64,000 bases of DNA from Nocardia sp. NBC_00416. GTDB taxonomy: Bacteria; Actinomycetota; Actinomycetes; Mycobacteriales; Mycobacteriaceae. Under the pieces are notes generated by a model. The model had not been told where the DNA came from, made no database searches, and saw only the letters and a program-made list of their open reading frames with translations. The DNA lies in the NCBI RefSeq assembly GCF_036032445.1, contig NZ_CP107932.1, positions 1,490,501-1,554,500 of the forward strand. The letters run 5' to 3'. A program made the translations under genes and the position numbers. Shown piece after piece: positions 30,570 through 39,866 of this stretch (its first letter is position 1; the number at the start of each line of letters is the position of its first letter).

Positions 30570-31310
30570 TCATGTAGCGGAGCGTGACTGACTTCCGAGG
30601 TTCGTAGCGGGGGCATGCAGGTTGACCCGGTTCTCGTACTCGCGACGGGCCTTGCGCTGGGCCGGGACCGCCGCGGTGCCGTCGAGGGCTTGGCGGAGGT
30701 CGAGGAGTCGGCGGTGGATCGCGGGCACGGCGGTGACGCGCAGGGTGTAGCCCTGTCCGCGCCGGACGGTCACGCCCTGGTCGAGTGTGGTGCGTTCGGC
30801 GGGCTCCAGTTCGGTGGCGCGGAGGAAGTCGGCGACCTTGCCTGGCATGTCGAGGACGACCGGCAGTTCAGGGGTTGAGGTGTCCGGGTCGGCGGCCGTG
30901 TACTCGGGCAGGAGGTCGGCGACGGCGGCGAGGGTCTGCACCATGAACTTCACGGTGGACAGCAGCTCGCCGGTACGTGGGTGGCGGGCGGTGAGGTCCA
31001 TCGCGGAGAACGCGCCGTCGTGGATGCGCAGGGCGAGACGGTCGCGGTGGAGGACGTCGAGCACGTCGAGGATGTGCCCGGTGCCGCGCACGAGCCGGAA
31101 CATCTCGGAGATGTGGACGGTGTCGCCCGGCCGCGCGTACACGAGCAGTTCGGCGAACTTCGGGCGCTGGAGCGGGTGGAGGCGGCTGGAGGTGCCCGCG
31201 GCTTCTTCGAAGGCGACCGGGTCCTCGATCCCGGCCTCGGCCAGGACGAGGTTCTGGCGGTCGGTCGACTGCTGGTCGGTCGACACCCGTTTGTAGACCA
31301 GGTTGGCCAT
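30570..31310 (-). CDS. Chimeric serine resolvase: catalytic domain fused to an unrelated C-terminus
   Basis: 246 residues. Residues 1-130 are a serine-recombinase catalytic domain: VYKRVSTDQQSTDRQN with catalytic Ser10, SEMFRLVRGTGHILDVLDVL, and the end of the domain STVKFMVQTLAAVA. In intact resolvases this helix continues into a DNA-binding HTH (E-R-x-L-x-x-R-T). Here it switches to DLLPEYTAADPDTSTPELPV and then about 90 residues with no HTH that I recognise (TLDQGVTVRRGQGYTLRVTA, RKARREYENRV). So the protein keeps catalysis but lacks the normal DNA-binding domain. It may be defective, or use its new tail. ATG 31310. Confidence 0.78.
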   Translation of the reverse strand: MANLVYKRVSTDQQSTDRQNLVLAEAGIEDPVAFEEAAGTSSRLHPLQRPKFAELLVYARPGDTVHISEMFRLVRGTGHILDVLDVLHRDRLALRIHDGAFSAMDLTARHPRTGELLSTVKFMVQTLAAVADLLPEYTAADPDTSTPELPVVLDMPGKVADFLRATELEPAERTTLDQGVTVRRGQGYTLRVTAVPAIHRRLLDLRQALDGTAAVPAQRKARREYENRVNLHAPATNLGSQSRSAT

Positions 31311-31444
31311 GCCGCTCCCCGTGTCGGTGCTGGCATTCGACCCTAGCTGTCAGCAAACCCTGTCAGCAGCCGTCATCGGATCTGATTGGATCTGCACGGC
31401 CGTCGGGACCCGGAAAGCCTGGGTTCATTGGACGCCCGCCGTGC

Positions 31445-31472
31445 CTGTCGTCATTCGATCGTTTTCCGACAG
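31445..31472. promoter_or_regulatory. Candidate res subsite of the transposon
   Basis: CTGTCG (31445-31450) and CGACAG (31467-31472) enclose a 16-base core with CGATCG at its centre. The 28-bp length is that of a resolvase subsite I. Two direct copies of CTGTCAG (31347-31353, 31360-31366) lie between it and the resolvase start. Confidence 0.4.
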
Positions 31473-31596
31473 GGGCAGATGCTTTCTCCGACGGTTCAAC
31501 ATCGATCTCATCAACGGGCCTCAGACGTGGGGCTCTGGCGGGAAGCCAGTCCAGCGGAGCTCGGCGGGGAGGTGGCCGGTGTCGGCCTCTGCGTCG

Positions 31597-32580
31597 TCAG
31601 ATCACACGCAAGACTGTCTTCCCGCGTGCCCCGGTCTCCGCATAGGTGTGGGCGTCGGCAGCAGCGTCGAGAGGGAAGACCTTGTCGAGGTGAACGGCCA
31701 GCGCGCCGGCCTCCACCAGCCGGGCGATCTTCTGGAGACCGTGTCCGTCGGGTTCAACCAGCGGTTCGGGCGCGAGGTGGACGCCGGCTGCTGCGGCTGC
31801 CTCGGTGAAGCCTGCCGGCCGGCCGGGAGCCACACCCAGGAAGAGCCCGCCGGGCTTCAGGACGGTGAGGGAGCGGGTAGCGGTATCTGGCTGGGCGATA
31901 CCGACGAGGTCGAGCACCACGTCGATGTTTCCGGTGGCCTCCTCGAATGGCGTGGCCCGGTAGTCGATCACCTCGTCGGCCCCCAGAGCGCGCAGCCAGT
32001 CGTGCTTGCCGGCGGTAGCGGTGGCGATGACGTGCGCCCCAAGGTGCTTGGCCATCTGGACGGCGAGGTGGCCGACACCTCCCCCCGCGGCATGGATCAG
32101 TACGCGCTCGCCGCCGTCGAGCTGGGCGATGTCTGTCAGGGACTGCCAGGCCGTCAGCCCGGCCAGGGGCAGTGCGGCAGCGTGGTCGTGGTCGATGCTC
32201 GCGGGCTTCCGAGCAAACTGCCGTGAGGGTGCGGTGACGTACTGCGCGTAGGCGCCGGCGGGCCGGGGCAGCCAGAGCAGGCCGAAGACCTCGTCGCCGG
32301 GCGCGTAGAGGAACTCACCTGGTCCGATCCCCACCACTGTGCCCGAAACGTCCCAGCCCAAGATGTGCGGCCCCGTTCCGAGGGCCGCCCTGGCGGGGGT
32401 AGGGAAACCAGCCCGGGTGCGCAGGTCCAGCGGGTTAATCCCAGCAGCGTGCACCCGAACCAGAACCTCAGTGGGCAGAGGTTCCGGGCGTGGCACCGTC
32501 GTCGGCACCAGAACCTCCGGGCCGCCGAAGTCGGTGAAGACCACGGCCCGCATCGCGGAACCGACGTTCTGATCAGACAT
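31597..32580 (-). CDS. Transposon-borne NADPH:quinone oxidoreductase (MDR family)
   Basis: 327 residues. The N-terminal GroES-like domain (VHAAGINPLDLRTRAG, LGWDVSGTVVGIG) and the Rossmann domain AAGGGVGHLAVQMAKHLGAHVIATA match quinone/enone reductases; no zinc ligands are seen. It is clearly homologous to the chromosomal protein at 21597 (shared DEVIDY, DVVLDLVG, SLTVLKPGG/SLRVLKPDG). ATG 32580 has GGAAGAG upstream; ATG 32553 is an alternative. It is divergent from the HxlR gene inside the same transposon, so enzyme and regulator travel together. Likely role: NADPH-dependent reduction of quinones or reactive carbonyls. Confidence 0.88.
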   Translation of the reverse strand: MSDQNVGSAMRAVVFTDFGGPEVLVPTTVPRPEPLPTEVLVRVHAAGINPLDLRTRAGFPTPARAALGTGPHILGWDVSGTVVGIGPGEFLYAPGDEVFGLLWLPRPAGAYAQYVTAPSRQFARKPASIDHDHAAALPLAGLTAWQSLTDIAQLDGGERVLIHAAGGGVGHLAVQMAKHLGAHVIATATAGKHDWLRALGADEVIDYRATPFEEATGNIDVVLDLVGIAQPDTATRSLTVLKPGGLFLGVAPGRPAGFTEAAAAAGVHLAPEPLVEPDGHGLQKIARLVEAGALAVHLDKVFPLDAAADAHTYAETGARGKTVLRVI

Positions 32581-32652
32581 GTACGACTCTTCCAGTAAGG
32601 GCGGCAACAATCCTCGGGCGATCGCAGTGGTGATGCGGTCCACGGTAGGTCG

Positions 32653-32681
32653 GCACCCTTGGTGACCCGCAAGCACCCTTG
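32653..32681. promoter_or_regulatory. Direct repeats in the QOR/HxlR divergent promoter
   Basis: GCACCCTTG occurs at 32653-32661 and again at 32673-32681, exactly 20 bases apart (two helical turns), between the divergent starts. This suits tandem binding of a dimeric regulator such as HxlR. Confidence 0.45.
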
Positions 32682-32720
32682 CTTCCCTTTGGGTAGAGTC
32701 GCAGGCAGGAGGCATCTTTC

Positions 32721-33074
32721 ATGACAACGACACCCGTCGAACCCCTCAGCCGCACCGCAGACGTCTATGCCGCGCTCTGCCCGGCTCGCGACGTCCTGGA
32801 CGTTCTGTCCGGCAAGTGGTCGGCCCTGGCCATCGGAGCCCTCGAAGAAGGCCCGCGCCGGTTCACCAGCCTTCAGAACTGCCTGCAGGGCGTCAGCCCG
32901 AAAGTTCTGACCCGGACCCTGCGCCAACTGGAGGACTACGGGTTCATCACCCGCACTGTGATCGCGCAAGTCCCGGTCCGCGTCGACTATGCCCTCACGG
33001 ACCTCGGACACGGTGCTGCAGCCCCGCTGGCACACCTGCGTCACTGGGTCGAGACGAACACCCAGATCAGGTAA
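32721..33074 (+). CDS. Transposon-borne HxlR family regulator
   Basis: 117 residues. CPARDVLDVLSGKWSALAIGALEEGPRRFTSLQNCLQGVSPKVLTRTLRQLEDYGFITRTVIAQVPVRVDYALTDLG is a complete HxlR winged helix with the N-terminal redox-type cysteine conserved. AGGAGG at 32707-32712 precedes ATG 32721. It is divergent from the quinone oxidoreductase. The same domain order and geometry occurs in the chromosomal pair at 21.1-22.5 kb, though the two regulators are diverged, not recent copies. Confidence 0.88.
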   Translation: MTTTPVEPLSRTADVYAALCPARDVLDVLSGKWSALAIGALEEGPRRFTSLQNCLQGVSPKVLTRTLRQLEDYGFITRTVIAQVPVRVDYALTDLGHGAAAPLAHLRHWVETNTQIR

Positions 33075-33168
33075 TCCCCGATTTCAGCGTCGGCCTCTCT
33101 GGAAGTGCATCGGATGCCAAACAGGCACTCAAGCCGATCAGCGCGTTGCAAGGTTTGCACGACGTGTC

Positions 33169-35013
33169 TTAATCCTCGCCGCCGTCGTCCTCGTCCAGCT
33201 CCGGCGTGTCCGGATCGCGCAGTGGTCGCAGGACGCCAGCGGCCGGGACGCTTGCGGTGAAGCTGTAGCGGCCGAGCAGGTTCAGGTTTCGGTGCTTGAG
33301 CGGGGACAGGCGGGTGATGTCCGCGTCGCGGATCTCGTGGCCCTCGGCGCGGAGCTGGGTGACGGCGGCGTCGATGTACTTCGTGGTCCAGAGCACGATG
33401 GCGTTGAGGACCAGGCCGAGCGCGCCGAGCTGGTCCTCCATGCCGTCGCGGTACGCCTGGTGGATGGTGCCGCGCTTGCCGTGGCATACGTCCCGGGCGA
33501 GCTTGTGGCGGGATTCCTGCACGGTGAGCTGCCGGTTCATCTGCCGGCGGTAGGTGTCGTCGACCGGGTCGACGACGCGCAGCAGGTGTTCGGTCTTGGC
33601 GATCCGCCCGTACTCCGCGAACGCGGCGCCCAGCGGGGTGGGGCGGCCGTCGCGGCCGAACATGCGCAGCAGGTCGTAGGCGCGGACCTGGTTGGTGACC
33701 AGGGAACCGGCGATCTTCAGCATGTCCGGCCAGTGCGTGATCACCTTGTTCAGGTTCACGCGGTTGCGGGCCAGGTCCTCCACCGCGCCGTACCTGCCGG
33801 TTTCGACGCCGGGCATGGTGGCCCGCCAGAACCGCTGATCGTCCAGGTCGCGGAACCGGGGGCTGAAGTTGTAGCCGAGGATCTTGAACAGGCCGAACAC
33901 CATGTCGGAGTACGAGGCGTTGTCGGTCGCCACCATCTCCGGCTTGACCCCGCCATCGAGGTTCAGCAGGGCGTCCAGGATGTGCAGGGAGTCGCGTGGG
34001 GTGCCGGGCACGACCATCTGCCCGATGCCCGCGACCTGGTCGTTGACGGCGTTGAGCCAGGTGATGCCCCGCTTGAACCCGAAGTACTTCGGCGACGGGG
34101 CAGCGTTGATGGTGCGCACCGGCACCTGGAAGCGCAGCCCGTCCACGGAGGCGAGTAGTCCGTCGCCCCAGTAACGCACGATCGGGATGCTGGCCTGGGC
34201 GGCGATCAGCCGCGCGTTCGCCGCGGCGATGGTGTCGGCGCGCAGGTAGTACTGGTCGACGTTCAGCTTCACCCGCCCGTCGTCCTGGACCTCGATGGAG
34301 ACCTTCGCCGCCGGCCCCGCATCCTCCAGGCGTTCGGCGAGCTGCTTCCATCCGACGTCCAGGCCCCGCACCAGCTCCGCCAGGTGCTCGGTGACGGGCA
34401 TGTCCAGGCTCAGGGCCGCCAGGACGTCCTCCTCGACCGCATCCCAGTCGGGCCCGTCCAGCAGGCGGGCCCGCGGGTTGGACCAGCGGTGCGAGGGCGA
34501 GGCGAAGACGTCGCGGTTGTTCAAGGCCCGGTGCAGCTACTCCAGCACGCACACCACGTACGCGTCCCGGTCCACCGCGCCCTGCGGCAGATCCGGATTG
34601 GCGTACACCGCCTTGCGCCACGCCAGCGGCACGAGCTTGTCGTCGACCTCGCGCGGCAGCAGCGGCTTGACCCCCACCTTCCGCCGGGCCAGCGCCGGAA
34701 GACCCCGGACCCCGGCCAGGACGCGTTTCCCGGCGCTCGCCGCGTTCAGAGCCTTCGACTCACCCAGCAACGCGAGGAACGGGCGCACGGTGGCGTACCG
34801 GCTCGCGAGCGCGGCCCGCATGGCGACCTCGGCCGAGTTCTCGTCCTCGGGCACCAGGGTCACCACGGTGGCCGCCGCGGTCATCACGGCGGCGCGCGGG
34901 GCGACTTCCTCCACAGCTGCCCAGAGCGCGGCCACGTCCAGGTCCGTCTCCTGCTCCTCGGCGAACGTCCCGTACGCCTCGGCCTGCTCATCGCTCAGAA
35001 ATTCCACCGGCAC
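33169..35013 (-). pseudogene. tnpA: Tn3-family transposase, amber-interrupted and internally shortened
   Basis: The C-terminal DDE domain is well preserved: VDGLRFQVPVRTINAAPSPKY, ATDNASYSDMVFGLFKILGY, LTVQESRHKLARD and the VLWTTKYIDAA end. Upstream the frame is stopped by TAG at 34537-34539 between YVVCVLE and LHRALNNRDVFASPS, a point where intact relatives have a continuous helix. The same frame continues upstream to VPVEFLSDEQAEAYGTFAEE, which looks like the authentic N-terminus (GTG 35013), then jumps directly into middle-domain sequence. The total of ~614 codons is several hundred short of the ~1000 usual, so a large in-frame internal deletion is inferred. Confidence 0.85.
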
Positions 35014-35097
35014 GAGCCGGACCGTAGCCAGCCCCGGACCGGGCCCGGAGGCGTTTCGCCGAACCCCAGCGGCGAAGTGGATCACTGTGCTAGGCGG

Positions 35098-36540: not shown

Positions 36541-37050
36541 CTAGCCCGTCTGCATCTGGCGGACCTGCTGGCGGACCTGGTGCAGCTGCAGTTCCCACTG
36601 CATGGCGCGGTCCTGCGACCGGCTGGACTGCTCCTCGGCCTGCTGGGCGAGCTGGGCGGCCTGATCGGCCTGGTCCTGCGCCGACTGGCACCGCTGGTTG
36701 GCCTGGTTGGCCTCGCTCTGGGCCTGCTGCGCCTGTCCCTGGGCGCGGTCGGCTTCGCTCTGAGCCTGCTGCGCCTGGTTCTGCGCCTGTTGTGCCTGCT
36801 GGCGGGCCTGTTGGGCCTGCTGGTTGGCCTGGTTGGCCGCATTCTGGGCGACCTGGGACTGGTGCTGGACCTGGCGGGCCTGCTGTTGCACCTGCCGAGC
36901 AAGGTTCTGCGCCTGCTGGGCGTACTGCCGAGCGCTCTGCGCTTCCTGCCGGATCTCATCCAGACCCAGCCGCAGCATCTCCAGGTTCTGGATATCCTGG
37001 CCGACGCCGTTGTTGCTGGTGCGGGTGGCAGTACTGGTGTCTTGCGCCAT
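36541..37050 (-). CDS. Gln/Ala-rich coiled-coil protein
   Basis: 169 residues, extraordinarily rich in Gln and Ala. After a 20-residue polar head the sequence is a nearly uninterrupted helix of AQQAQxQ heptad-like units (for example QAQQARQQAQQAQNQAQQ) from about residue 38 to 140, with one Cys near 124. No signal peptide or membrane segment. ATG 37050 is preceded by a GAAAGGAT-like ribosome site, and a strong terminator follows the stop, which supports a real gene despite its low complexity. It lies directly downstream of the recombinase on the same strand, with a 240-base gap. Function unknown; a scaffold or DNA/phase-separating protein is only a guess. Confidence 0.75.
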   Translation of the reverse strand: MAQDTSTATRTSNNGVGQDIQNLEMLRLGLDEIRQEAQSARQYAQQAQNLARQVQQQARQVQHQSQVAQNAANQANQQAQQARQQAQQAQNQAQQAQSEADRAQGQAQQAQSEANQANQRCQSAQDQADQAAQLAQQAEEQSSRSQDRAMQWELQLHQVRQQVRQMQTG

Positions 37051-37292
37051 CTGAGCATCCTTTCAAAGGGGGGGTTTGAAACGGACCTACTCGTGGAGCG
37101 CTCATATCCTCGCACAGGCCGATACCGCACCACCCGTCACGTTTTGAGAAACACGGGGGAAATATTTTCCGGCGGCGCTGCCGGTCGCGGTTATCGGCCG
37201 CGACCGGGGTGTGACGGCGTCCGATGCGGTGTCCGTGAGGTCGCCGGATGCCGGACCGAGATCGCACCGTCACCATGGAGCCTGTTCTGTGT

Positions 37293-38495
37293 TCACAGTC
37301 CGAGCTTGGTGACGGCGTTGTCGGCGAGCGGGTCCGCGGTGCGAATGTAGCGGTGCACTGTGCGGGGGTTGCTCCATCGTCCCTGGCGCATGATCTCGCG
37401 GTCGGCCGCGCCGCCGAGGGCGGCCTGGGTGGCGAATCCGGCGCGCAGGGAGTGGCCGGAGAACAGTGCGGGGTCGAGTCCGGCCCGGGCGGCGTAGCGT
37501 TTGACGATTTCGGCGACTGCCCGCCCGGACAGGGGTGTCGTGCCCAGTCCGCCGTGTCGGTTGATCGCGGGGAACAGGGCTCGGTCGGGGGCGAGGCGGG
37601 TGTCGAGGGCGTATCCGTGGCACCGGTGGATGTGGGGGTCGCCGGTGGGAAGGTCGGCGATCCAGTCGCGTACACGCCGCGGGTTTTCGGTGTGTGCGGC
37701 GAGTAGGCGCAGCCAGTCGGCGCAGGCGCAGATGGGGCAGGTGGGCGCCTGCCGGCCCCTGGGCAGCGCGACCTGTTGTTCGGTGATGCCGGTGGGGTCG
37801 GTTTTGGTGGTGGGCAGGTGGATCACCAGGAGGGGTTCGCCGGTGCCGTGGTCGGTGCCGAACTGGATATCGGCGATCCGCAGTCCGGCGAGTTCGCTGC
37901 GGCGCAGTGCTCCGGCGAATCCGAGTAGTAGCAGCAGGGTGTCGCGGCGGCGGGCGGGTTCGCCGGGCCATCCCGGTTCGGGGAGTCCGGCGAGGAGTTC
38001 GGTGAGGGTGTGCAGCAGGATGGGCCGTTTGCGGTCGGGGCGGGCGCGGCGGGTGCGGCGGATTCCGCGCAGGGTGAGGCGGACGACGTCGCTGCGGGTG
38101 GGTGCGGGTAATCCGTTGGCGGCGTGGACGGCGGCTATGGCGGCGGATTTGCGTTCGAGTGTGGCGGGTCCGTAGGCGTGGCGTCCGTCGGTGGTGCGGG
38201 CGTCGGCGGCCGCGGCGAGGTAGACGGCGATGTCGAGGGGGTCGGCGGGGAGGGCGCAGCGGCTTTCGGTGGCGCACCAGGCTGCCCAGGCGATCCAGTC
38301 GGTGCGGTAGGCGCGCAGGGTGTTCGGGGATTGGGAGGCGGTGAGGTAGCGGCCGAGCGCGGTGGATTGTTCGGTGTCGAAGCGTTCGCGGACCTGGCGC
38401 AGGGCGGCGGTGTCGACGAGAACGCTGGTGACTCCGCGGCGGAGTTCGGTGCGGACGGTGTCGGGCAGTGCGTGGTCGATGTCGAAGTCGGTCAA
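37293..38495 (-). CDS. Tyrosine recombinase / integrase
   Basis: 400 residues. The N-terminal SAM-like domain (ALGRYLTASQSPNTLRAYRTDWIAWAAWC) is at about 45-73. Catalytic motifs follow: GALRRSELAGLRIADI (first Arg), HSLRAGFATQAALGG (HxxR), GRWSNPRTVHRYIR (His/Trp region and the Tyr nucleophile). The start is TTG 38495 with GAGGGG upstream; no ATG fits. There is a CPICAC cysteine cluster (about 255-260) between the motifs. No tRNA or flanking att repeats are seen, so it may act on a local site. The lox-like repeat at 38593 lies 98 bases upstream of its start. Confidence 0.9.
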   Translation of the reverse strand: MTDFDIDHALPDTVRTELRRGVTSVLVDTAALRQVRERFDTEQSTALGRYLTASQSPNTLRAYRTDWIAWAAWCATESRCALPADPLDIAVYLAAAADARTTDGRHAYGPATLERKSAAIAAVHAANGLPAPTRSDVVRLTLRGIRRTRRARPDRKRPILLHTLTELLAGLPEPGWPGEPARRRDTLLLLLGFAGALRRSELAGLRIADIQFGTDHGTGEPLLVIHLPTTKTDPTGITEQQVALPRGRQAPTCPICACADWLRLLAAHTENPRRVRDWIADLPTGDPHIHRCHGYALDTRLAPDRALFPAINRHGGLGTTPLSGRAVAEIVKRYAARAGLDPALFSGHSLRAGFATQAALGGAADREIMRQGRWSNPRTVHRYIRTADPLADNAVTKLGL

Positions 38496-38592
38496 CGGGG
38501 CCCCTCGGCAATTAAGTAGCGGAATACGTTTGGTTGGCGCAAACGAAACGAAATGTATTGAAAACGAAGCGGTCTTCTCGAACCCTACCGCC

Positions 38593-38627
38593 CTAACCTC
38601 CGATAATGTTCACTTATCGGAGGTTAG
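38593..38627. repeat. 14-7-14 perfect inverted repeat, lox/FRT-like geometry
   Basis: CTAACCTCCGATAA (38593-38606) and its exact complement (38614-38627) flank a 7-base asymmetric spacer TGTTCAC. This is the arm-and-overlap geometry of tyrosine-recombinase crossover sites. It lies between the divergent recombinase and zinc-knuckle genes. A regulatory operator is the alternative. Confidence 0.7.
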
Positions 38628-38674
38628 GAACCAGGCGTCTCCGTCGAAGCAATTCGGGCCCAATTGGCATTCCG

Positions 38675-38705
38675 TTACGTTTAAATACGTAGAACGCCAA
38701 CGTAA
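38675..38705. promoter_or_regulatory. TTACGTT/AACGTAA inverted repeat before the coiled-coil gene
   Basis: TTACGTT (38675-38681) and AACGTAA (38699-38705) are exact complements 17 bases apart, ending 18 bases before GTG 38724. A/T content is high here, so promoter and operator are likely. Confidence 0.5.
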
Positions 38706-38723
38706 TAACGCTACGATTCATCG

Positions 38724-39866
38724 GTGCCCACAGTCTGCAACTACCCCGGCTGCACCCGCCCGCTCGCTCGCCCTACGGGTCCCGGCCGCCCCTCCGAATA
38801 CTGCGACCTCCCGGACCACACTCGATGGCGCGCATGGCGTGAACGGCAACGCCTGCAACAGGAGTCCATCACCCCCGCTGAGAACGTCACTGTGACGACC
38901 CAGGGTCCGGTGACCACCGCCCGGCTGCGGGCCGACGAGCTGCTCACCCAGTTCCGCACTCTCGCCGACCAGCTCGGCACCACCCTCAACGCCGCGGTCA
39001 CCGAGATGTCCACTCTCGCCGACCCATCGGCGGCGGAAGCGCAGGTGCAAGCCGTGCAGGCCGATGCGTCGCGCCGGATCGCCGAAGCCGAGATGGCGGC
39101 CGCCGCGGCCGAAGGGTCACGCCGTGAAGCGCACGAGGCCCGAACCCTGGCGGAGGAAGCTGCCGAGGACGCCGCGCATACCGCCGAGACCGCGGAAGCG
39201 AATATCGCCGAAGCCCGTTCACACACAGCCGCGGCGAGGCGTGACCGCGACGAGGCGCTACGCGAGATCGAAAACGTCACCACCCAGGCCGCCGAGGACG
39301 TCTTCGCCGCCCGCACCGCAGCGGAGGAAGAGATCCGGGCCGCCCGTAGCGCGGCCGAGGCCGAGCGAGAACACCTCGAAGAGCGCTGCGCGCAGGAGGT
39401 GGCGCGGGCCCAGCGTGACGCCGCGGCCGAGGTCGAGCGAATGCGGCGCGAGTTCACCCAGCGTGAATCCGCCGCTGTCGCCGAACGAGACCTGGCGATA
39501 CAGCGAGCCGCCGATATCGAACGTGCTCTCGAACGTGCGGAGCAGTCCGCCGCCGAACGCGCGCAGACGGCGCAGGAGATGCGCACGGAACTGCAGCGGT
39601 TACGCGCCGAGGCCGACTCGTTCCGTAGCGAACTCGCCGAATCCCGGCGTGGCGCGGCGGCGGACCTTTCCGCGGTCCGCGCCGAGGCCGGGACCCGGTT
39701 GGACAAAGCCCGGGAGGAGGCCGCGCAACGGATCGATGCGCTCGAACACGCCCGCGCTCAGACACTGGCCCGCGCCGAACGCGCGGAACGTCAACTCGAT
39801 GATCTGCTCGCCGATCGACGGCCCCGGGCGGCGCATACGCCGGTCGCCGCCGGCGACGCGAGCTGA
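38724..39866 (+). CDS. Zinc-knuckle plus long coiled-coil protein (KfrA-like architecture)
   Basis: 380 residues. The N-terminus has C5-x4-C10-x16-C27-x4-H32 (VCNYPGC ... YCDLPDH), a probable CCCH zinc site next to a basic helix WRAWRERQRLQQE. From about residue 60 to 365 it is an Ala/Glu/Arg-rich coiled coil without transmembrane segments. This arrangement resembles KfrA-type DNA-binding filament proteins in outline only. GTG 38724 begins directly at the zinc motif. It is divergent from the tyrosine recombinase, with the lox-like site between them, so a joint role in recombination or DNA organisation is plausible. No close family is recognised. Confidence 0.75.
   Translation: MPTVCNYPGCTRPLARPTGPGRPSEYCDLPDHTRWRAWRERQRLQQESITPAENVTVTTQGPVTTARLRADELLTQFRTLADQLGTTLNAAVTEMSTLADPSAAEAQVQAVQADASRRIAEAEMAAAAAEGSRREAHEARTLAEEAAEDAAHTAETAEANIAEARSHTAAARRDRDEALREIENVTTQAAEDVFAARTAAEEEIRAARSAAEAEREHLEERCAQEVARAQRDAAAEVERMRREFTQRESAAVAERDLAIQRAADIERALERAEQSAAERAQTAQEMRTELQRLRAEADSFRSELAESRRGAAADLSAVRAEAGTRLDKAREEAAQRIDALEHARAQTLARAERAERQLDDLLADRRPRAAHTPVAAGDAS

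Follow-up and report, generated by a model that had tools for sequence, protein, structure and literature searches.

XerL/dif of the Legionellales, XerS/difSL and XerH/difH each consist of one tyrosine recombinase and a terminus site of about 30 bp that mobile elements share, and published accounts present XerS, XerH and XerL as systems found in place of XerCD (PMC5357621, PMC9765430). The Legionella dif site has perfectly symmetric 10-bp arms, and XerL/dif was found via a mobile element that borrows this symmetric terminus site (PMC9765430). P1 Cre/loxP and the further Cre-like systems VCre, SCre, Vika, Nigri and Panto have palindromic arms around an asymmetric spacer. Here we describe a locus of Nocardia sp. 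NBC_00416 that resembles both kinds of system. It lies in a 64-kb stretch (the window; positions 1490501-1554500 of a single-contig 7.37-Mb chromosome) and comprises a 35-bp palindromic site, a Cre-type tyrosine recombinase and a divergently transcribed gene for a coiled-coil protein (kfr). We consider it probable that these form a chromosomal, Cre/lox-like second resolution system, located at the terminus beside XerCD/dif, with the 35-bp site as the crossover site of the enzyme.

Like the single-recombinase Xer systems, the locus would combine one tyrosine recombinase with a terminus site that is also found on mobile elements. In contrast to them, Nocardia has XerC/XerD-type recombinases and a canonical dif as well, its enzyme is Cre-type, its arms are 14 bp long with a 7-nucleotide (nt) spacer, and a coiled-coil gene stands beside the site. 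Cre is the best match of the enzyme in the PDB, and the palindromic arms and asymmetric spacer are shared with the Cre-like systems; unlike these, however, the Nocardia system is chromosomal, sits at the terminus and is genus-wide. Its site is 14-7-14 (35 bp), whereas lox sites are 13-8-13 (34 bp), and a published lox-like search, which used an 8-bp spacer, would miss it because its spacer is 7 nt (PMC4957104). The inner arm, CCGATAA/TTAT, resembles the Frankia alni dif CACGCCGATAATGCACATTATGTCAAGT suggested in a study of actinobacterial XerCD/dif (PMC3025954). Unlike actinobacterial dif, the Nocardia site is symmetric, has a 7-nt spacer, goes with another enzyme and is separate from dif, which lies 11-988 kb away in the same genomes. 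The system is outside both the Xer protein subfamily and strict Cre/lox, and would work like both. The literature matches listed included none that describes such a system in either Nocardia or Rhodococcus, in a search whose coverage mostly left out subscription journals.

The crossover-like site occupies 38593..38627 on the minus strand and is the proposed target of the recombinase. Its two 14-bp arms enclose an asymmetric 7-nt spacer that reads GTGAACA on the minus strand and TGTTCAC on the plus strand. The full palindrome, at 38592-38628, is CCTAACCTCCGATAA-TGTTCAC-TTATCGGAGGTTAGG, which makes the inverted repeat, described as perfect in an earlier note on this DNA, a perfect 15-7-15 at this locus. 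The recombinase (37293..38495, minus strand; 400 amino acids with a TTG start; PF00589, E value of 2.9e-12) is 97 bp from the site on one side, and the partner coiled-coil protein (kfr; 38724..39866, plus strand; 380 amino acids with a Cys/His-rich head and a long predicted helix) is 96 bp from it on the other. The window held no further match to the palindrome at up to three mismatches, and 100 shuffles gave 0. In the whole genome, CCGATAA-N7-TTATCGG with at most two mismatches occurs at 19 places, compared with 2 for the reversed control, and the spacer TGTTCAC is found at only 1 of the 19, namely 38592-38628.

The distribution of the three components was followed in 148 Nocardia genomes drawn evenly over the genus. 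The site core, searched as GATAAGTGAACNTTATC with at most one mismatch, is present in 143 genomes (exactly one copy in 133, two or three in 10), absent from 5, and the reversed-pattern control gave 0 matches in the 148. The recombinase was detected in 145 genomes at an E value of 1e-60, with one match each, those in G225 and G249 being fragments. With the first 75 residues as the query, the coiled-coil protein was also detected in 145 at E values of 0.001 or below (141 strong matches and 4 weak or fragmentary ones). The view of recombinase, lox-like site and divergent coiled coil as a set is thereby upheld: the set is near-universal in the sample. Three genomes (G154, G222 and G231) have neither site nor recombinase, with coiled-coil matches of 8e-11, none and 1e-7, respectively. 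In G225 the site is absent and the recombinase and coiled-coil genes persist only as fragments in several frames (L218, G225:C14), an apparent joint decay of the system. Site and intact recombinase are thus missing together from four genomes, which may be related and so not represent four independent losses; G154 and G231, which share a variant of the canonical dif, GATAATTGACATTATGTCAG (G154:C1:195099 and G231:C5:11039), may belong to one clade that lost the system once. The remaining genome without a site, G311, is 88% complete and has the recombinase, with site and coiled-coil matches absent.

The limits of the site were read from an alignment of 78 distinct sequences with 30-bp flanks, extra and plasmid copies included. 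The alignment was collected with the core GATAAGT[GA]AACNTTATC as the search string, so that the constancy of the core within it is by construction. Beyond the core, conservation rises and falls sharply at the edges of a 35-bp unit, CTRACCNCCGATAA-GTGAACN-TTATCGGNGGTYAG. Because it stops sharply after 14 arm bases, we take the functional unit to be 35 bp with a 14-7-14 layout (38593-38627), the unit that the earlier note had also proposed. Arm positions 23/53 are paired in 74 of the 78 sites (55 expected) and positions 27/49 in 48 (24 expected), while pairing past 14 bp falls to about the level expected from independence. Equal arms and an asymmetric spacer of 6 to 8 nt are the layout of tyrosine-recombinase core sites. 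The spacer is GTGAACN in nearly all of the 143 genomes with the core; one listed main site differs (GTAAACA, in G272). IMG/VR gave no exact match to the site pattern, and a phage collection gave no match at an E value of 1.

By sequence, Cre is the nearest solved structure to the recombinase: in a PDB profile search with 22 relatives, Cre was the best match at 2.8e-24, and XerD followed at 1.4e-9. Residues R198, K231, H348, R351 and Y383 are the same in all 22 sequences compared, which come from Nocardia and relatives, and position 374 is Trp in the Nocardia enzymes and His in the relatives; from their motif positions, we take these R-K-H-R-H/W-Y residues to be the catalytic set. Scores against the Xer subfamilies fall far below their cut-offs (XerD, 35.8 bits with a cut-off of 329.6; XerC, 30.5 with 335; XerS, 21.4 with 267), and the enzyme is accordingly classed as Cre-type, with all catalytic residues. 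Among seven tyrosine recombinases identified in the NBC_00416 genome, two (L190 and L191) have a GATAA..TTATC palindrome of their own 42-100 bp upstream, as does one further recombinase gene with an internal stop (L199); these palindromes are CGGATAACAGACCGTTATCCG (L191, 2383-2411), CAGATAACAGTGTGTTATCTG (L199, 1111-1131) and CCGATAAGACCCGCTTATCGG (L190, 1883-1903). A similar palindrome at 1589327 (L192) has no recognized recombinase beside it.

The partner protein has a Cys/His-rich head, CNYPGC..GPGRPSEYC..HTRWRAWRER, followed by one predicted helix over residues 101-365, and 205 of its 380 residues have a predicted local distance difference test (pLDDT) score of at least 90. The whole protein matched no Pfam family at an E value of 0.1 and no NCBIfam family at 0.001, the head alone matched only DUF7701 (0.18), and a Foldseek search with the coiled-coil model gave no matches. 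The partner is KfrA-like in build only. KfrA proteins of IncP-1 and IncU plasmids likewise combine a head domain with a long coiled coil and are encoded beside a palindrome; they act as transcriptional autoregulators and polymerize into filaments with their DNA sites (PMC7821693). Unlike KfrA, the Nocardia protein is chromosomally encoded, has a Cys/His-rich head and lies outside known families at the thresholds just given.

Placement relative to the replication terminus was assessed in 24 one- or two-contig Nocardia assemblies in which dnaA, the canonical dif and the site could be located. These come from 28 genomes, of which G154 and G231 have no site, the site of G328 is unlisted and G303 is in several contigs. 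Lengths are rounded, and the figure for G301, whose chromosome is seemingly in two contigs, is rough. The distance from dnaA to the site is 0.44-0.535 of the circle in every one of the 24. The distance of the site from the canonical dif has a median of 173 kb, and in NBC_00416 it is 41 kb, with dif at 1570339, beyond the window. The direction of the spacer relative to the replication fork is identical in 24 of 24. Each of the 28 Nocardia genomes searched has a canonical dif (at most two mismatches allowed; the best match had 0 or 1). Two XerC/XerD-type recombinases were found in 30 of 30 genomes (26 Nocardia genomes, including the system-less G154 and G231, and 4 from Rhodococcus, group g27); one of the two is above the curated cut-off in all 30, and the second only in the 4 Rhodococcus genomes. 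In NBC_00416 itself, C1:3340771 best fits XerC and C1:17986 is the better of the two for XerD, each slightly under the cut-off of its own model. Given the canonical dif and the two XerC/XerD-type recombinases, the new system exists beside XerCD/dif.

Relatives of the recombinase with about 40% identity are common: of 201 genomes sampled across the family, a number that includes Nocardia, 78 have a match at 1e-20. A palindrome, TTGATCGTCATAA-N7-TTATGACGATCAA, lies near some of these relatives, its left arm less constant than its right. Searching the 201 genomes for the right half-site with an ATAA-N7 core returned all 14 Rhodococcus (g27) genomes, 6 of 6 from group g22 and the single g25 genome, 21 in total from three genera, all of which have a recombinase relative on the same contig; nine further genomes with one-mismatch matches were dropped as chance-like. 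The Rhodococcus site is 84-140 kb from the canonical dif in 5 of the 5 genomes tested, and the recombinase of group g10 is also near dif, at 79-155 kb in three genomes. A coiled-coil protein is encoded beside the site, about 200-500 bp away, in 14 of 16 non-Nocardia loci (from 16 of the 21 genomes), all 14 belonging to Rhodococcus, and in 0 of 28 control loci. The Rhodococcus head, GRPRKY..ADRVRA.RE, resembles the GRPSEY..HTRWRAWRE of Nocardia and is followed by 317-342 coiled-coil-like residues. When the spacer GTGGGGA is aligned to GTGAACA, Rhodococcus (L237, L239, L240 and L243) and Nocardia have the spacer pointing opposite ways with respect to the coiled-coil gene; under the same alignment, its direction relative to the fork agrees between four Rhodococcus chromosomes and the 24 Nocardia assemblies, a comparison of two lineages only.

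On the reading that the locus is a second resolution system, we infer that the enzyme acts on the site and that one recombinase monomer would bind each 14-bp arm. Two sites would pair with their spacers aligned, strand exchange across the 7-nt spacer would resolve a dimer, and the asymmetry of the spacer would give the site its direction. With a single site per chromosome, the enzyme could act only on sister chromosomes, on a dimeric chromosome or on an incoming circle that carries this site as well; at the terminus, dimers and sister termini linked in other ways would be turned into monomers. The coiled-coil protein probably binds DNA at the site through its head and may organize or license the synapse; by analogy with KfrA filaments, it might mark the terminus or hold it. 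Of the inversion or resolution role suggested in the earlier note, resolution thus stands as the best role, and local inversion does not, since a two-copy inversion is not possible in genomes with one site each, as most are. A two-site inversion or resolution cassette was set aside for the same reason: it needs two copies per replicon, and 133 of 148 genomes, NBC_00416 among them, have a single site.

A fuller version of this reading is offered tentatively. Nocardia and Rhodococcus may run XerCD/dif plus the Cre-type system, with a coiled coil of its own that replaces or joins FtsK and holds sister termini together until they are resolved; the direction of the spacer with respect to the fork would be maintained, and plasmids would parasitize the site, some of them resolving through changed spacers without fusion to the chromosome. 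If the second system is real and genus-wide beside an intact XerCD/dif, it raises the question of which tasks are beyond XerCD and whether a dedicated anchor protein is required to unlink termini. The system would also provide a new kind of lox-like tool, with a 7-nt spacer, and its site would flag plasmids that possibly rely on recombinases of their host.

Plasmids are the ground on which the strongest alternative stands: the system may be of plasmid origin and now serve mobile elements, through multimer resolution or element integration and excision, the chromosomal site being kept as an attachment site. Relatives of the recombinase (about 38-43% identity in the rows shown) are present on 52 PLSDB plasmids at an E value of 1e-20, 46 of them from Rhodococcus, and Cre separates P1 genome dimers (PMC8138268). 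Extra sites occur in 10 of the 148 Nocardia genomes, one such site lying on a circular plasmid and another adjoining plasmid-like genes that include ParA, and have no recombinase or coiled-coil gene in the fetched flanks of about 4-6 kb, except that one of two copies in G299 is 9 kb from the recombinase. The circular case, L202 of G194, is a 5.4-kb circle because the ends of its contig overlap by 127 bp; it encodes a Rep_1 replication protein (4e-7, just under the cut-off) and a TraB-like protein (2.5e-7, far under the cut-off), and its site equals the chromosomal site of its host in 34 of 35 bases, spacer included, with unrelated flanks. The complete Nocardia plasmid NZ_CP107850.1 has a site between annotated genes and no recombinase relative at 1e-20. 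Seven plasmid matches outside Nocardia (Rhizobium, Paracoccus, Streptomonospora and Hymenobacter) were taken as chance. No convincing common palindrome was seen near seven Rhodococcus plasmid recombinases. On four of these seven stretches (L221, L222, L224 and L225), a gene of about 340 amino acids directly follows the recombinase relative and is once annotated as a recombinase.

Several observations set the mobile-element explanation back, and we judge it unlikely. Fully 133 of the 148 genomes keep the set with a single site, and a mobile-element role needs no terminus position. The phylogeny also separates the enzymes: in a FastTree tree of 36 sequences (from 48 loci, 9 without a reading frame and 3 duplicates), the Nocardia enzymes group with a support of 1.0, and a group with all plasmid enzymes and some others (0.98) excludes them. 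The 12 site-linked enzymes of other genera also fall outside the plasmid group, and group together only weakly (0.17; ten of them, 0.95). For a terminus-located resolution system, the plasmid copies would have another meaning, in that site-bearing plasmids without a recombinase would rely on the host enzyme to resolve their own multimers; as a conjecture, plasmids with the changed spacers GTGAATT, GTGAATG and GTGATCG would resolve without fusing to the chromosome.

Two genomes carry possible traces of exchange at the site. In G299, two contigs have different left flanks, one of them with plasmid-like genes and ParA, and a common right flank from the site onward; one contig stops exactly 127 bp past the start of the common stretch, which fits a k=127 assembly graph branching at the site, the value of k being inferred. 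In G258 (L273 at about 2031, G258:C6:251031), the spacer is reversed in place, the only such case among 135 genomes scored, with the coiled-coil gene still 111 bp away, in a flank whose order matches G303 across about 90 kb of the G258 sequence. The GC skew was too weak for an assignment of the G258 replichore. The reversed spacer is possibly a natural footprint of exchange at the site, and each of these signs of use (G299, the plasmid copies, G258 and the other palindromes) is suggestive.

The arrangement of the site and its two genes bears on whether the palindrome serves as an ordinary operator, a possibility that the earlier note had itself raised, with the KfrA-like coiled coil or the recombinase acting on it to control its own divergent promoters. 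Distances were tabulated from 139 site, 141 kfr and 143 recombinase positions in Nocardia, leaving out unlisted rows, weak kfr matches, the G225 and G249 fragments, extra sites and the G299 C212 site. The order, kfr and recombinase reading away from the site on opposite sides, holds in 134 of 135 genomes scorable for kfr and 121 of 125 scorable for the recombinase, with the same side and strand for each gene. In the remaining 4 of the 125, the recombinase is on the other side at 155-165 kb, which looks like one shared inversion. Measured on the same contig, 117 of 135 genomes have the coiled-coil start no more than 150 bp from the site; it is at 150-1,000 bp in 1, at 1-20 kb in 16 and at 87 kb in 1. 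The recombinase is at a median distance of 9.0 kb (range, 0.1-165 kb; n=125), within 500 bp in 23 and beyond 500 bp in 102. The expectation that recombinase, repeat and zinc-knuckle gene would always be adjacent thus holds for presence, as they nearly always coexist in Nocardia, and fails for adjacency of the recombinase. An operator would sit well between the two divergent starts in the window and as close to the coiled-coil start as most sites are, and KfrA proteins are autoregulators of transcription (PMC7821693). However, 10 genomes (G205, G237, G246, G257, G261, G265, G280, G295, G306 and G319) have both genes at more than 1 kb from the site, which is therefore not simply the operator of either gene, and the extra copies, plasmid ones among them, have neither gene in their flanks. 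The constant asymmetric spacer GTGAACN would also be unexpected between operator halves, site and recombinase are absent together, and an operator is improbable.

Slightly less probable again is that the coiled coil binds the site as a lone centromere-like or terminus-anchoring element, with the recombinase merely a long-standing neighbor. The link of the site to the coiled-coil gene is indeed closer and more constant than that to the recombinase, and such a gene also stands beside 14 of the 16 sites in other genera. It is the recombinase, however, that is jointly absent with the site, and G299 keeps both without a coiled-coil match; the 14-7-14 geometry is that of a tyrosine-recombinase site; the head is of the Cys/His type in Nocardia and of the GRPRKY type in Rhodococcus, while the 7-nt spacer layout is constant; and two g22 sites have no such gene nearby. 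That the palindrome acts as a hairpin in RNA or single-stranded DNA is scarcely credible despite a strong predicted single-stranded DNA hairpin (z score of -5.9) and some covarying arm positions, since covariation is equally expected of two equal protein half-sites, one arm position is paired in only 48 of 78 sites, the symmetry stops at the same 14 bp across sites, copies lie in unrelated contexts, and the palindrome is here intergenic between divergent genes with no terminator-like match in 38450-38800.

The proposal of a Cre/lox-like second resolution system at the terminus is thus built on conservation, a single copy, terminus position, joint absence with the recombinase, arm limits, plasmid copies and intact catalytic residues, all read from genome comparison; dimer resolution would be its role, with the coiled coil acting at the site and plasmids making use of the enzyme. 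A number of points weigh against it. The case for recombination at the site is a comparative one only. All 28 system-bearing genomes tested (24 Nocardia and 4 Rhodococcus) have dif and both Xer-type recombinases; dimer resolution is thereby provided for, and why a second system should be needed is unexplained. A distance of up to 0.99 Mb between site and dif is far for a mechanism tuned to one point, and the fork-relative spacer direction is not independent evidence because symmetric origin-terminus inversions preserve the direction of any gene. The site is tied more closely to the coiled coil, which is within 150 bp in 117 of 135 genomes, than to the recombinase, which is within 500 bp in 23 of 125, as an operator or an anchor would also predict, and G299 has site and recombinase with the coiled-coil match absent. 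Some extra sites have other spacers (GTGAATG, GTGAATT and GTGATCG) or poor arms, the latter in G244 and G274 and partly in G318 among the ten genomes. Outside Nocardia, two g22 sites have no such coiled-coil gene within the stretch examined, no site was recognized in 8.5 kb around three g10 recombinases, and the recombinase relatives of G128, G148 and G077 (g6, g30 and g14) are not near dif, so that the terminus rule does not cover all relatives. The other five of the seven recombinases in NBC_00416 showed no palindrome of this type, and the AlphaFold model of the recombinase is poor (pLDDT of 58), its top Foldseek matches, also to Cre, adding little.

A Gln/Ala-rich coiled coil encoded downstream of the recombinase (36541..37050, minus strand; Alanine_zipper, PF11839, E value of 9.7e-7) had been counted in the earlier note as a member of the cluster. 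We judge it to be outside the system and dropped it as a partner: a tblastn match near the recombinase was found in only 7 of 80 named Nocardia loci, all from nearest relatives, with the search covering flanks of about 4 kb and missing any copies farther out. The view that the set is not an ordinary integrated element holds, and no tRNA was found in the 64-kb window. Tn3-family remains adjoin the locus (window positions 30570-35085), with other open reading frames in between; they consist of a separate open reading frame without a Pfam family (34537-35085), the DDE Tn3 transposase domain next to it (33169-34524; PF01526, 6e-109) and a resolvase (30570-31310; PF00239).

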